This document shows positions 58,920 to 63,954 of a DNA stretch of 64,000 bases, piece by piece. Every line of letters starts with the position of its first letter. Position 1 is the stretch's first letter. The DNA lies in the NCBI RefSeq assembly GCF_003003265.1, contig NZ_PVTL01000008.1, positions 1 to 64,000 on the forward strand, in the 5' to 3' direction. Source of the stretch: Glaciihabitans tibetensis. Its GTDB lineage: Bacteria > Actinomycetota > Actinomycetes > Actinomycetales > Microbacteriaceae. The notes under the pieces were generated by a model. It saw nothing but the letters and a program-made list of their open reading frames with translations, was not told where the DNA came from and ran no database searches. The position numbers and the translations under genes were made by a program.

Positions 58920-59669
58920 ATGCATCACCTTGCCCCGCGCCGGTCGCGCCTGCGTATGGCCACGGCGGCCATTGCTCTCGCCGTAGGCTTCACGATGGTG
59001 AGCGCCGGTTCGGCGTTTGCCGCTCCCGCCCCCGCGATAACGATCACCACCACCGCAAGCGCCGAGGTCGGCCAGCCCGTCGACGTAGCCGTCACCGTTA
59101 CCGACACCACCGACGTGTTCAGCTACGCGATCACACTGAGCTACGACCCCGCGATCTTCGCGTACAGCGACAACAGCGCGACCGACGGCCCAGCCGGTGG
59201 TTTTGACAGCGTCGTAGAGGACGAGGGCGCGGTCACCCTGGTCCACAGTCGTCTCGGGACGTCGCCCGCCCTCGCGGGGAGCCTGCCAGCGTCGTTGTCC
59301 TTCACCACCATCGGCAGCGGAACGGGTTCCATCACTGCATCCGTAGCTCTCGTAAATTCAAGTGGTGCCGCGAGCGCAGCCGTTCCTGCTGTAACGAGCG
59401 CGCCCATAGTCGTCACGGCGGTGCCCGTGCCCGTGCCGAGCGACACGGCGTCGCCGACCGCCTCGCCCACCCCGTCTGCCGCGCCCTCTCAATCGCCTTC
59501 CCCGACTCCCACGTCGAGCGCCGCACCGGCTGCGAATGCCGCACCGACGGGCATCCTGGCCCTCACGGGTGTCGCCGGCGGAGCCTTGGTCTACGTCGCG
59601 ATCGGAAGCATCCTTGCGATCGCCCTGGGTGTCGTCGTGTACCGCCGCCGAGTAGCGAGCGCCCGATGA
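58920..59669 (+). CDS. cohesin-like, sortase-anchored surface protein
   Basis: A 249-residue exported protein. A basic N-terminus and hydrophobic core end in SAFA-AP (signal cleavage about residue 34). Residues about 38-150 resemble a cohesin-type beta sandwich: VGQPVDVAVTVTDTTDVFSY, then ITLSYDPAIFAY and LSFTTIGSGTGSITASVAL. A Pro/Ser/Thr linker leads to the sorting signal LALTG (213-217), a hydrophobic helix and a basic YRRRVASAR tail. LAxTG signals suit class E sortases of actinobacteria. ATG 58920 has AAGAAGGA nine bases upstream. The dockerin-bearing amidase gene follows, which gives the cohesin call its meaning. Confidence 0.72.
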   Translation: MHHLAPRRSRLRMATAAIALAVGFTMVSAGSAFAAPAPAITITTTASAEVGQPVDVAVTVTDTTDVFSYAITLSYDPAIFAYSDNSATDGPAGGFDSVVEDEGAVTLVHSRLGTSPALAGSLPASLSFTTIGSGTGSITASVALVNSSGAASAAVPAVTSAPIVVTAVPVPVPSDTASPTASPTPSAAPSQSPSPTPTSSAAPAANAAPTGILALTGVAGGALVYVAIGSILAIALGVVVYRRRVASAR

Positions 59670-59740
59670 CCCACTTCAATCAGACTCCTACAACTCGTAT
59701 CGGGGCCGTACGTCCCCCCTTCTCCGTGAGGAAAAACCCA

Positions 59741-61588
59741 GTGGCTTTACGTCGCACACGCACGACCGCGGCCGCAGCGACGGGCATCGTCTCGATGCTC
59801 GCCGTCAGCGCCTTCGTGGGAACACCAGCGGTCGCCGAACCGATCAACACGGCGGCCTCAACCGGCGTCTTCCTGGCGCCGTACTATACGGAGCTTGACC
59901 TCACGGGCGACGAGCAGGTGACTTCCGCGGATCTTGAACTTCTCGCGCAGGCTCTCGGCGCGACGGCGACATCACCCTCCTGGGCGGCCGTCTCCACCGC
60001 GGACGTCGATGTCGACGGAACTATCACTCTCACCGACATCGCGACGGTCTCCACCCGGATCATCTACGACGATGGTCCCTTCGACCTCATCGAGGCGACG
60101 ACCATCGACATGCAGGCCGCGATGAACGCGGGTGTCACCTCGTCTGTTGAGCTCACCCAGGCGTACCTCGACCGAATCGACGCGTACGACCGCGTAAAGG
60201 TTGATCCCGCCACCACCGGACGGGCGCTGAACTCGATCATCTCGACCAACTCCACCGCGCTGGCAGCGGCGGCCGCGGCAGACGCAACCCGGGCGGCAGA
60301 GGGGATGACCAGCATGCTGCTCGGTATTCCCCTCGCCGTAAAGGACAACTACAACACGAAGGACATGCCCACGACCGCGGGCTGCAGCTGCTGGGACGGC
60401 AACCAGACCTCCGACGATGCGTTTATGGTCGAGGGACTTCGCGCTGCCGGGTCCGTCATTCTCGCCAAGGCGAGTCTCGACGAGTTCGCACTCGGGTTCT
60501 CGTCTGCATTCTCGTCGTTCCAGGAGCCCGGTGCGTCTCTGCTCGTCGCCAGCCCGTACAACACGACTCGTACCGCGGGCGGATCCAGCGGGGGAACCGG
60601 TGCCGCAATCGCAGCGAACCTCGCCGGGATCGGATTCGGCTCCGACACGGGCGGATCGATCCGTGTGCCGTCTTCGTACAACCAGCTCGTCGGCATCCGC
60701 CCCACGGTTGGTCTTTCCAGCCGCGACGGCATCGTTCCGCTCGCACTGACCCAGGACACGGGAGGCCCCATCGCACGCAGCGTCACCGACGCGGCGGTTG
60801 CACTCGACGCCGTCGTGGGAGTCGATCCCGCTGATCCGATCACGGCTGAGCAGACCGGGCTCGTTCCGGATTCGTACACGGAATACCTCGACCCGACTGC
60901 TCTCCAGGGCACCCGGATCGGATACGTGGCCTCCATGGTGGGCACCAACGCGACCGTGTTGCGCCTGTGGAACGAGGCGCTCGACAAGCTCCGGGCGCAG
61001 GGCGCGGAGATCGTGGTGATCCCGAGCTCGCCCACCCTCACGGCGACGCTCGACGAGAGCAGCGGAAGCACGAACGAGTTCAAACACGACCTCGCGATCT
61101 ACACGCAGACCTACCTCAACCCGGCGGTCACGGCGCGGTCCATCCCGGAACTCCTCGCCTCCGGTCGGATGGTCCCTAACCGCAGCACCACGTACACAGC
61201 ACGCGAAAACGTGACCGAAGAGGCGTACCAGAGATGGGCGGGGCCGACCGGTACACACACGGCCGCAATCGCGACGGGAAGCACCTTCGTGACGTCGTTG
61301 CTCGACGACAACAACCTGGACTCGATCATTTACCCGTCGACTGGCCAGTACACCACCATCAGCACCAACATGCGTCTGAGTCCCAATACCGGGATGCCCT
61401 CGGTGACGGTGCCGATGGGACAGTCGATACCCACTGACGCCGGTGCGGTCGCTGGCGCCGGCGTGAACCTGGAGTTCCTGGGACGCAACTACGACGAAGG
61501 AACGCTCATTGGGCTGACCTACGCGTTTGAGCAGGCCACGCACGCGCGCACCACTCCTGCGCTGTACGGAGCCCTGCCGACGAGGTAG
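59741..61588 (+). CDS. secreted amidase-signature enzyme with N-terminal dockerin
   Basis: A 615-residue exported enzyme. GTG 59741 (GAGGAAAA upstream) gives a normal signal peptide ending VAE-PI near residue 33; the frame is open back to ATG 59666, which overlaps the previous stop. Residues 53-64 and 88-99 are two dockerin-type calcium loops with Asp at positions 1, 5 and 12 of each (D53, D57, D64; D88, D92, D99). The amidase-signature domain follows: K201 in LAVKDNYN, the Gly/Ser motif GGSSGG (280-285) and nucleophile S306 in DTGGSIRVP. It hydrolyses an amide outside the cell; the substrate is unknown. Confidence 0.85.
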   Translation: MALRRTRTTAAAATGIVSMLAVSAFVGTPAVAEPINTAASTGVFLAPYYTELDLTGDEQVTSADLELLAQALGATATSPSWAAVSTADVDVDGTITLTDIATVSTRIIYDDGPFDLIEATTIDMQAAMNAGVTSSVELTQAYLDRIDAYDRVKVDPATTGRALNSIISTNSTALAAAAAADATRAAEGMTSMLLGIPLAVKDNYNTKDMPTTAGCSCWDGNQTSDDAFMVEGLRAAGSVILAKASLDEFALGFSSAFSSFQEPGASLLVASPYNTTRTAGGSSGGTGAAIAANLAGIGFGSDTGGSIRVPSSYNQLVGIRPTVGLSSRDGIVPLALTQDTGGPIARSVTDAAVALDAVVGVDPADPITAEQTGLVPDSYTEYLDPTALQGTRIGYVASMVGTNATVLRLWNEALDKLRAQGAEIVVIPSSPTLTATLDESSGSTNEFKHDLAIYTQTYLNPAVTARSIPELLASGRMVPNRSTTYTARENVTEEAYQRWAGPTGTHTAAIATGSTFVTSLLDDNNLDSIIYPSTGQYTTISTNMRLSPNTGMPSVTVPMGQSIPTDAGAVAGAGVNLEFLGRNYDEGTLIGLTYAFEQATHARTTPALYGALPTR

Positions 61589-61601
61589 CCCGAGCAAGTC
61601 G

Positions 61602-61645
61602 AATGCCCGCCCCAGCGCCGAACCGGTGCTGGGGCGGGCATTTTT
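61602..61645 (+). terminator. strong intrinsic terminator after the amidase gene
   Basis: aatgcccgccccagc (61602-61616) pairs perfectly with gctggggcgggcatt (61628-61642), loop 11 bases, followed by TTTTT (61641-61645). Confidence 0.93.
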
Positions 61646-61811: not shown

Positions 61812-62843
61812 ATGCGTTCTCCCCGTTCCCTTGCCGTCACGGCAACCGCGCTCGCGGTCTCCGCTGTGCTCGGCCTCAGCGCCTGCAGCAGCACTGCCGA
61901 CACCGCCTCTGACGACACGGCGACCGCGGAGGGGTACCCGATCACCATCGAGCACGCCCTCGGCACCACCACGCTGACCGAGAAGCCCGAGCGCGTCGCC
62001 ACGGTTCAGTGGGAGAACCAGGAAGTGCCGCTCGCGCTCGGTGTCGTTCCCGTGGGAATGGCCGCGGCCAACTTCGGAGATGACGACGGAGACGGAATCC
62101 TACCCTGGGTGGCAGAAAAGCTGGACGAGCTCGGGGGCGAAGCCCCCGTCCTCTTCGACGAAACCGATGGAATCGACTTCGAAGCGGTCGCCGACACGAA
62201 CCCCGATGTGATTCTCGCGGCGTACTCCGGCCTGACGCAGGAGGACTACGACACCCTCAGCGAGATCGCTCCGGTCGTCGGCTACCCGGACGCACCCTGG
62301 GCCACGTCGTGGCGCGACTCGATCAAGTTCAACAGCATGGGTATGGGCATGGCCGAGGAAGGCGAGCAGCTTGTCGCCGACATCGAGCAGGAAGTTTCCG
62401 ACTCCGTTGCCGAGTACCCGCAGCTCGAGGGCAAGGCGACCATGTTCCTGACTCACATCGACCCGACTGACCTGAGCGAGGTCAACTTCTACACCGGTTT
62501 TGACACCCGCGGCGCGTTCTTCGAGGACCTCGGCCTGGCCACTCCCCAGAGCGTTGCAGATGCATCGGAAGACAACTCCTTCTCGGGCACGGTCAGTGCC
62601 GAGCAGGTCGACGTCTTCTCCGACGTCGACATCCTCGTCACCTACGGAGACGACGAGACCATCGCGCTGCTCCAGGGCGACCCGCTGCTCTCGCAGGTGC
62701 CCGCTATCAAGAACGGTGCGATCGTTGCGCTGCCCGACTCCAGCCCGCTGGGAACCGCAGCCAACCCGACCCCGCTCGCCATCTCGTGGGTCCTCGACGA
62801 GTACGTCGCGCTTCTTGCCGCGGCAGCCGACAAGGCTCTGTGA
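61812..62843 (+). CDS. iron-siderophore ABC transporter substrate-binding lipoprotein
   Basis: A 343-residue class III binding protein of the FepB/FhuD type. The lipobox VLGLSAC gives C25, and residues 45-120 (ITIEHALGTTTLTEKPERVA, then DPDVI-like NPDVILAAYSGLTQEDY) are typical for ferric siderophore binding proteins. It is controlled by the IdeR-like box upstream and followed by FecCD-type permeases. The siderophore, probably hydroxamate or citrate-like, cannot be specified. Confidence 0.88.
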   Translation: MRSPRSLAVTATALAVSAVLGLSACSSTADTASDDTATAEGYPITIEHALGTTTLTEKPERVATVQWENQEVPLALGVVPVGMAAANFGDDDGDGILPWVAEKLDELGGEAPVLFDETDGIDFEAVADTNPDVILAAYSGLTQEDYDTLSEIAPVVGYPDAPWATSWRDSIKFNSMGMGMAEEGEQLVADIEQEVSDSVAEYPQLEGKATMFLTHIDPTDLSEVNFYTGFDTRGAFFEDLGLATPQSVADASEDNSFSGTVSAEQVDVFSDVDILVTYGDDETIALLQGDPLLSQVPAIKNGAIVALPDSSPLGTAANPTPLAISWVLDEYVALLAAAADKAL

Positions 62844-62859
62844 GCCTGACGCTGGCTCT

Positions 62860-62927
62860 GTAACCCAGATCACTCGGTAACCCAGACAACTCCGTACTCC
62901 AGACAACCCTGTGACCCAGACAATTCA
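62860..62927 (+). repeat. four tandem copies of a 17-bp unit running into a start codon
   Basis: Units gtaacccagatcactcg, gtaacccagacaactcc, gtactccagacaaccct and gtgacccagacaattca follow without gaps. The last unit supplies the GTG start and first five codons of the permease gene. Confidence 0.92.
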
Positions 62928-63954
62928 GCGCCCCGATTCGGGCGTCGCCACCGTGCGACGCCCGAATCGCGTGCGGCTGTTGTGGCTGATTGCGGTGCTG
63001 GGGCTCCTCGCCGTCCTCGCGGTAACGTCGCTCGTTGTTGGCTCGCGGGATGTCTCGTTTGACGACCTTCTCGCCGGTCTGCGCGGGTCGATGGACAACC
63101 TCAGCCAGGCCGCCGTAGTGAAACGAATCCCCCGCACGATTCTCGCCGTGATCGTGGGCGCCGCGCTGGGGCTCTCCGGCGCGGTCATGCAGGGCGTCAC
63201 CCGCAACCCGCTCGCCGACCCCAGCATCCTCGGGGTGAACATGGGCGCCTCCCTCGCTGTCGTCACCGGCATCGCCTGGTTCGGGCTGTCCACCGCCACC
63301 GGTTACCTGTGGGCCGCGATCGCGGGCGCGGCCGTGACCGCCGTCTTTGTCTACACGATTGGTTCGCTCGGTCGTGGCGGTGCCACCCCGCTCAAACTGG
63401 CGCTCGCGGGCGCTGCAACCTCGGCCGCGCTCGTTTCCTTCATCACCGCGGTGGCGCTACCCCGAGGCGACATCTCAGCCAACATCCGATCGTGGCAGAT
63501 CGGTGGTGTGGGCGGTGCTTCCTTCGACAGCATCCAGCCCATGCTCCCGTTCTTCGTCGTGGGCTGCGCGATCAGTCTGATGTCGGCTCGAGGTCTTAAT
63601 TCGCTTGCCCTGGGGGATGACCTCGCCGCCAGCCTCGGAGAACGAGTTGCCGTCGCCCGCGCTTTCGCCGCCGTCGGTGCGGTTCTGCTGTGCGGTGCCG
63701 CGACCGCTGTTGCGGGCCCGATCGGCTTCGTCGGCCTGGTTGTGCCGCACTTCTGCCGATTGTTGGTCGGCGTCGACCAGCGCTGGCTTCTCCCATTCTC
63801 AGCGCTGACCGGCGCGTGCCTGCTCGTCTTTGCCGACGTGATCGGGCGCATCATCGCTCGCCCCGCCGAGCTCGATGTCGGGATCCTCACCGCCCTCATC
63901 GGCGCACCGTTCTTCATCGCCATTGTTCGCCGCCAGAAAGTTCGTGCCCTATGA
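62911..63954 (+). CDS. FecCD-family siderophore ABC transporter permease
   Basis: A 347-residue permease with about nine to ten helices. KRIPRTILAVIVGAALGLSG near residue 70 and QGVTRNPLADPSILGVNMGA near 94 are the FecCD signature, and GPIGFVGLVVPHFCRLLVGV near 269 is the conserved ATPase-contact region. The GTG start at 62911 falls in the fourth copy of a 17-base repeat; a later GTG at 62953 is possible. A second permease begins at the window end. Confidence 0.9.
   Translation: MTQTIQRPDSGVATVRRPNRVRLLWLIAVLGLLAVLAVTSLVVGSRDVSFDDLLAGLRGSMDNLSQAAVVKRIPRTILAVIVGAALGLSGAVMQGVTRNPLADPSILGVNMGASLAVVTGIAWFGLSTATGYLWAAIAGAAVTAVFVYTIGSLGRGGATPLKLALAGAATSAALVSFITAVALPRGDISANIRSWQIGGVGGASFDSIQPMLPFFVVGCAISLMSARGLNSLALGDDLAASLGERVAVARAFAAVGAVLLCGAATAVAGPIGFVGLVVPHFCRLLVGVDQRWLLPFSALTGACLLVFADVIGRIIARPAELDVGILTALIGAPFFIAIVRRQKVRAL

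Follow-up and report, generated by a model that had tools for sequence, protein, structure and literature searches.

The partnership of cohesin and dockerin is familiar chiefly from cellulosomes, which it serves to assemble; in these cellulose-degrading complexes, dockerin enzymes are gathered on a scaffoldin, and anchoring is by SLH domains or by sortases. What, then, might a single cohesin be doing directly beside a dockerin-bearing amidase in an actinobacterium? The pair in question lies on the forward strand of a 64,000-nucleotide stretch of Glaciihabitans tibetensis DNA (Microbacteriaceae; assembly GCF_003003265.1, contig NZ_PVTL01000008.1, positions 1-64,000), hereafter the window. Its first gene (58920..59669) encodes a 249-residue protein with one cohesin and a putative sorting signal, while the second (59666..61588) encodes an amidase, predicted to be secreted, whose N-terminal part is a type I dockerin. 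We consider it highly probable that the two genes form a surface-display unit, in which the cohesin protein is a wall anchor that holds the dockerin amidase on the cell surface, and the notion of a cohesin anchor holding a dockerin enzyme appears well supported by genomics. In the mechanism that we propose, the product of the first gene would be exported as a short wall anchor and joined to peptidoglycan by a class E sortase via its LALTG motif, where a flexible linker would let it present one cohesin outward. The amidase would be exported separately, its N-terminal dockerin would fold around calcium, and this dockerin would plug into the cohesin, such that the enzyme is kept 1:1 on the cell surface. 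A first-pass annotation, made from the letters of the DNA, had already described a minimal device of one scaffold and one enzyme encoded on one strand at these positions. The open reading frame (ORF) positions confirm the arrangement, and the device itself draws support from the fold of the cohesin, from the linkage of the two genes in relatives, and from a genome with one cohesin and one dockerin above cut-off.

We begin with the cohesin protein, which opens with a signal peptide recognizable by eye. The Pfam Cohesin family (PF00963) matches residues 40-134 (59037-59321) with an E-value of 1.5e-7 and 32.1 bits, against a cut-off of 24.1. An AlphaFold2 model of 133 residues (35-167; 59022..59420), built from the window cohesin aligned with 56 related sequences (57 in total), reached a pLDDT of 95.6 and a pTM of 0.88. 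When this model was compared with the PDB by Foldseek, ranks 1-24 were all cohesin or cohesin-dockerin entries, the best being 2jh2 (E 1.2e-10). VIA-align gave a best Z of 16.1 over 127 residues with a root-mean-square deviation of 2.5; three Clostridium perfringens cohesin structures scored Z 16.1, 16.0, and 15.8 and the CipA cohesin 1aoh 13.8. At the level of sequence, the matches to 2jh2 and 2w1n were weak (E 0.009-0.017). Judged from the model, the domain is a cohesin and is nearest to non-cellulosomal cohesins, and the cohesin-like beta domain initially noticed at residues 38-150 has thus been substantiated. The model is matched by domains of pilins and other wall proteins as well, and these matches could be taken to favor a different explanation, in which the cohesin is a generic beta-sandwich spacer, the dockerin a calcium clamp, and both are structural add-ons of genes that are neighbors for co-expression only. 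However, such domains rank below the cohesins (Z 12.6-12.9), and the best cohesins outrank the pilin domains by Z 16 to 13. Beyond the cohesin, a Pro/Ser/Thr-rich linker leads to the LALTG motif (59556..59570), which is followed by a hydrophobic segment and an RRR tail. Residues L213, T216, and G217 of the protein are invariant across 23 aligned sequences. Motifs of the LAxTG type are linked to class E sortases, and a search for such an enzyme yielded five sortase matches in the genome, one of which, encoded at another locus, exceeds the class E cut-off with the score of its matched part alone (166 vs 160 bits). With its motif, hydrophobic segment, basic tail, and a class E sortase in the same genome, the 249-residue protein has the features of an LAxTG sortase substrate and may well be exported and sorted as was initially supposed.

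The partner protein carries a Pfam Dockerin_1 match (PF00404) at residues 78-132 (59897..60061; E 1.6e-7, 31.9 bits against a cut-off of 22.9). Its two candidate calcium loops span 59897-59932 (D78, D82, and D89) and 60002-60037 (D113, D117, and D124), counting from the ATG at 59666. These are the same residues that had been listed earlier as D53/D57/D64 and D88/D92/D99, the numbers being lower by 25 when counted from a GTG at 59741. In 21 aligned sequences, T80, G81, D82, D89, D113, and D124 are invariant and D78, D115, and D117 nearly so, and the two dockerin-type calcium loops of a secreted amidase were thus correctly recognized. The remainder of the protein is an amidase-signature catalytic domain (60086..61564), to which the Amidase family (PF01425) matches with 260.3 bits; accordingly, all three profile searches put forward at the outset (PF00963, PF00404, and PF01425) returned their domain, the first two above their cut-offs.

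If the two modules bind one another, presumably with calcium, their genes should rarely be parted. We therefore surveyed 398 Microbacteriaceae genomes, counting Pfam matches at an E-value of 0.001. Cohesins were present in 20 of these genomes and dockerins in 25, while an amidase search (E 1e-120 or better) found a protein spanning the dockerin in 29. These 29 include every one of the 20 genomes with a cohesin and 24 of the 25 with a dockerin; in the 25th, the dockerin is part of a frame of 86 residues at the end of a contig and not on an amidase, and that genome (G263) was left out of the pair count. Using profiles built from the family, a cohesin was found to adjoin or share a frame with the amidase in 27/29 genomes. 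In one of the remaining two (G155), the amidase is located at one contig's end and the cohesin at another's, and in the second (G057), the amidase starts a contig. Both modules are scarce in a draw of 296 genomes from the phylum, with cohesins in two and dockerins in five, the window genome being included in both counts. The wider set consisted of the best 80 of at least 514 amidase loci in GTDB genomes, and includes Leifsonia, Curtobacterium, Microbacterium, Agreia, Cellulosimicrobium, Cellulomonas, Oerskovia, Georgenia, Demequina, Nocardioides, Paenibacillus, and Cohnella. A dockerin is present in 62 of these best 80 loci and a cohesin is adjacent or fused in 60 of the 62, while the other two (L096 and L102) stop at contig ends in genomes that each have a cohesin at another contig's end. 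The 18 loci without a dockerin are all from Bacillota, and none of them has a cohesin beside the amidase within its flanks, nor do any of the seven dockerin-less family amidases examined among 32 listed.

Together, the two surveys comprise 82 distinct dockerin-amidase loci from Actinomycetota and Bacillota (62 plus 29, less nine shared), after the removal of two loci whose dockerins are not on this amidase (L054 and L077). The cohesin lies upstream in 56 cases and downstream in 17, is fused in five, and is unseen in four; the adjacent ones are all on the same strand. Adjacency was judged within flanks that mostly extend at least 5 kb, and the loci are not independent events, as some are strains of one species. 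All four loci without a visible cohesin end at contig ends, and three of them (G155, L096, and L102) have a cohesin on another contig's end. Thus, the genes are not separated in relatives, as a survey of co-occurrence had been expected to reveal if they belong together: 78/82 are adjacent (73) or fused (5) and the other four are cut off by contig ends. A flipping gene order and fusions, combined with a lasting association, are what would be expected of physical partners. The same counts speak against the modules as structural add-ons, since they are present together in 78/82 loci and absent together in 25/25 examined dockerin-less loci, and since five fusions occur; overall, we regard that explanation as unlikely.

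Four of the fusions are Nocardioides frames (L117, L123, L124, and L131) that join dockerin, amidase, and cohesin into a single chain; L117, the only one of the four that was scanned, also has an Ig-like match at its C-terminus that falls below the cut-off. The fifth (L080:7294-9900) is a single frame that reads cohesin, LSATG, hydrophobic segment, a second export-like segment, dockerin, and amidase, and by this order of parts it is the two genes fused head to tail. The anchors of the cohesin partners were found to vary as well. Among the best 80 loci, 40 of 60 partners end in an LxxTG signal, whereas SLH domains replace the sorting signal in all 12 Paenibacillus/Cohnella (Bacillota) partners, in 11 of which Pfam sees the cohesin. 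SLH domains are also attached directly to 9 of the 11 scanned amidases among the 18 dockerin-less Bacillota ones, one of which has three. Related amidases therefore seem to be fitted for the surface either directly or via dockerin and cohesin.

Several observations weigh against a cohesin anchor holding a dockerin enzyme on the wall. Covariation between cohesin and dockerin beyond that of the amidase is unexceptional, with a partial rank correlation of 0.12, a value equaled or surpassed by 19 of 43 amidase windows; this lack of an excess also speaks for structural add-ons, as does the fact that binding is so far deduced from the modules themselves. The covariation analysis used the 65 actinobacterial pairs of 77, leaving out 12 (the Bacillota pairs and L098), while L144 was not among the 77 owing to its dockerin score. 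A single-chain model of the natural Nocardioides fusion L117 (dockerin-amidase-cohesin) reached only a pLDDT of 68 and a pTM of 0.46, with a poor amidase core, values too low for an interface to be read from it. In the alignment used for this model, about 10 residues of each cohesin-only row lay outside the cohesin columns; the other alignments tried were not used, and in one of them the cohesin-only rows were misplaced. Six Nocardioides partners, including the four fused ones, have neither a sorting motif nor SLH domains, and an Ig-like family matches the two that were scanned, at scores under its cut-off. The fused chains thus unite both modules but show no evident anchor, which a plain wall tether fails to explain. 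Two further partners (L148 and G132) have only a C-terminal hydrophobic segment, and that of L148 is a cohesin by the family-built profile only, without a Pfam match. In Demequina sediminis (L098:4133-4582), the cohesin frame ends early and lacks the linker and sorting signal, which may be due to a frameshift or to decay. Finally, neither of the two congeners of G. tibetensis has a Pfam match for either module. In these two genomes, the glycerate kinase matches were only 43-48% identical, so no orthologous empty site was found.

We were also interested in whether the pair serves other partners. In the G. tibetensis genome (3.73 Mb, 21 contigs), a single cohesin and a single dockerin pass the Pfam cut-offs, and both belong to this pair. 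One further weak cohesin match (C3:97881-98129, 17.9 bits) is below the cut-off and was rejected as a second cohesin, as the family-built cohesin profile finds nothing there. A multi-cohesin scaffoldin, as a cellulosome would have, is absent from the genome at this cut-off, in which the single cohesin stands alone, and the sole above-cut-off dockerin sits on an amidase rather than on a carbohydrate-active enzyme. Consequently, the pair is not a cellulosome: there is one cohesin, one dockerin, and no carbohydrate enzyme here, in line with the initial view that no polysaccharide-degrading enzyme is involved. An anchored cohesin could nevertheless be a general dock for several dockerin proteins, from its own or another cell, with the amidase merely a neighbor. 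Seven Paenibacillus/Cohnella genomes, which have 7-33 cohesins and 2-28 dockerins, would suit such a role, as would two family genomes (G320 and G359) in which one cohesin is accompanied by two dockerin matches. In Cohnella xylanilytica, there is a single cohesin and a single dockerin. The actinobacterial genomes argue otherwise, because the window genome has a single above-cut-off dockerin and none of the 22 actinobacterial genomes tested has more than one Pfam cohesin (16 one, 6 none) or more than one Pfam dockerin (18 one, 4 none). It should be noted that Pfam misses the cohesin in six and the dockerin in four of these 22 genomes, where family-built profiles detect the modules at the locus; a count of only one therefore holds at the sensitivity of Pfam, which tempers its support for a dedicated anchor and enzyme. 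On balance, a general dock strikes us as improbable. In the two family genomes with an additional dockerin match, both of which contain the pair, that match lies in a secreted-looking protein of 1.23 thousand amino acids (L078:6914-10612 in G320 and L077:5466-9170 in G359) alongside a single cohesin. The G320 protein ends in its own LAATG signal, and a Pfam scan of called proteins recovers the second dockerin in G359 but not in G320. These proteins are possibly other clients of the same cohesin.

As for the enzyme that the anchor would display, K226, S307, and S331 are invariant in the 21 aligned sequences, and we take them to be the Lys/Ser/Ser catalytic triad of the amidase signature family. 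The nearest solved structures to the catalytic domain are those of peptide amidase (5ac3/1m21; E 3.6e-70 over ~490 residues), presumably from Stenotrophomonas maltophilia, and a profile search against 1m21 gave an E-value of 1.8e-107. The likeness is confined to the catalytic domain; unlike the window enzyme, the peptide amidase chains (503 and 514 residues) are little longer than that domain. The nearest named NCBI family, the equivalog NF006006 (PRK08137 amidase), scored 345.6 bits, which is below its cut-off of 534. Our best guess from these similarities is that the enzyme is an amide hydrolase, probably acting on terminal amides of peptides or on small amides at the surface. The tether might alternatively place the enzyme at a substrate in the cell's own envelope, such as the amides of amidated peptidoglycan stems. 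Both the wall tether, by sorting signal or SLH, and the name of the nearest solved enzyme would suit such a substrate, but no recurring wall-synthesis neighbors were noticed by eye in the listed loci, for which no annotation was run, and most family genomes do without the enzyme, as a dockerin amidase occurs in just 29/398. We therefore consider an envelope substrate to be rather doubtful, although less so than the two explanations discussed above.

The window pair shares with cellulosomes the cohesin-dockerin plug, a predicted extracellular location, and a wall-anchored cohesin, the anchoring here being predicted from sequence. It differs in having one cohesin and one dockerin without a multi-cohesin scaffoldin, in lacking a carbohydrate-binding module or carbohydrate enzyme, and in its actinobacterial host. 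Closer counterparts exist in Paenibacillus guangzhouensis, for which a survey (PMC11557425) counts five SLH-anchoring proteins along with 28 dockerin-cohesin proteins, many of them with glycosidases, and classes single-cohesin proteins as of unknown function. Its cohesin-SLH anchors and its enzymes with both cohesin and dockerin resemble the Bacillota relatives found here, while it differs from the window pair in having many such proteins per genome and carbohydrate-active enzymes. By the account given there, the 1:1 amidase pair falls outside the survey because a multi-cohesin protein and a dockerin glycosidase were demanded. We inspected five Paenibacillus-type stretches (L185-L189), chosen for a short cohesin frame beside a larger cohesin protein. 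In all five, the short neighbor is a cohesin-SLH protein of 342-351 residues, and the larger protein has its own cohesin (5/5) and usually a Pfam dockerin (4/5); one is a polysaccharide lyase and one a family 3 glycosidase. The non-cellulosomal cohesins of C. perfringens glycosidases are the nearest solved ones, 2jh2 and 2w1n by sequence and fold and 2vo8 by fold, although there the cohesin is part of the enzyme, whereas in the window it is a separate wall anchor. Cohesins and dockerins outside cellulosomes are known in general, as noted in the excerpted text of PMC9012536, which deals with ANME archaea. These resemble the window pair in a use of cohesin and dockerin outside cellulose degradation, with attachment to the outer layer proposed; they differ, as described in that text, in having dockerins on solute-binding proteins, multi-cohesin proteins, and no amidase pair. 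A pair of a cohesin protein and a dockerin amidase was not found described among the literature matches listed, and an older review of non-cellulosomal cohesins and dockerins may mention members. The first-pass statement that no system of this form has been described is consequently upheld for the literature searched, but its kind is not wholly new, given the account of P. guangzhouensis (PMC11557425).

A pair conserved across two phyla suggests that cohesin and dockerin also serve as a simple holder for one enzyme on the surface. We lean slightly toward a broader proposal, in which they are a portable, cellulosome-independent holder of Gram-positives with one socket and one plug, and in which the amidase unit had a single origin, moved between Bacillota and Actinomycetota, and swapped its anchors (SLH, sortase signal, Ig-like or membrane tail, or direct fusion) while keeping the connector. 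When 91 amidase domains were placed in a quick maximum-likelihood tree, a branch (support 89) had the 66 dockerin-bearing ones all to one side, and the actinobacterial dockerin amidases are one group within (support 99). The root was placed at the midpoint, and long branches occur among the dockerin-less rows; read in this way, the tree is in keeping with one origin and transfer between the phyla. A search of 72,556 plasmid records gave no match to the amidase at 1e-60. If the proposed function of the pair is correct, a conserved 1:1 unit with a non-carbohydrate enzyme, in genomes where no further cohesin or dockerin passes the cut-off, would be the cohesin-dockerin module at its simplest and would offer a new binding pair for surface display. 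With two small proteins, the role of lone cohesins and dockerins outside cellulosomes could be put to the test, and the swapping of anchors would provide a natural series for studying enzyme placement on Gram-positive surfaces.

With regard to the layout of the locus, the ATG of the amidase ORF at 59666 overlaps the stop of the cohesin gene and would yield 640 residues. The GTG at 59741 is the likelier start, giving 615 residues, because many of the 20 aligned homologues start near it, these homologue starts being predictions of the gene caller. The pair was originally said to end in a single strong terminator. Folding calculations do place a hairpin of 20 pairs with a T-rich end at 61601..61643 on the same strand (-48.4 kcal/mol including flanks, z -7.2), a likely terminator of the pair, although a simple terminator scan of the window did not list it. 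Further downstream and outside the pair (61812-63954), the genes resemble by eye an iron-siderophore uptake operon with a binding protein and a permease.
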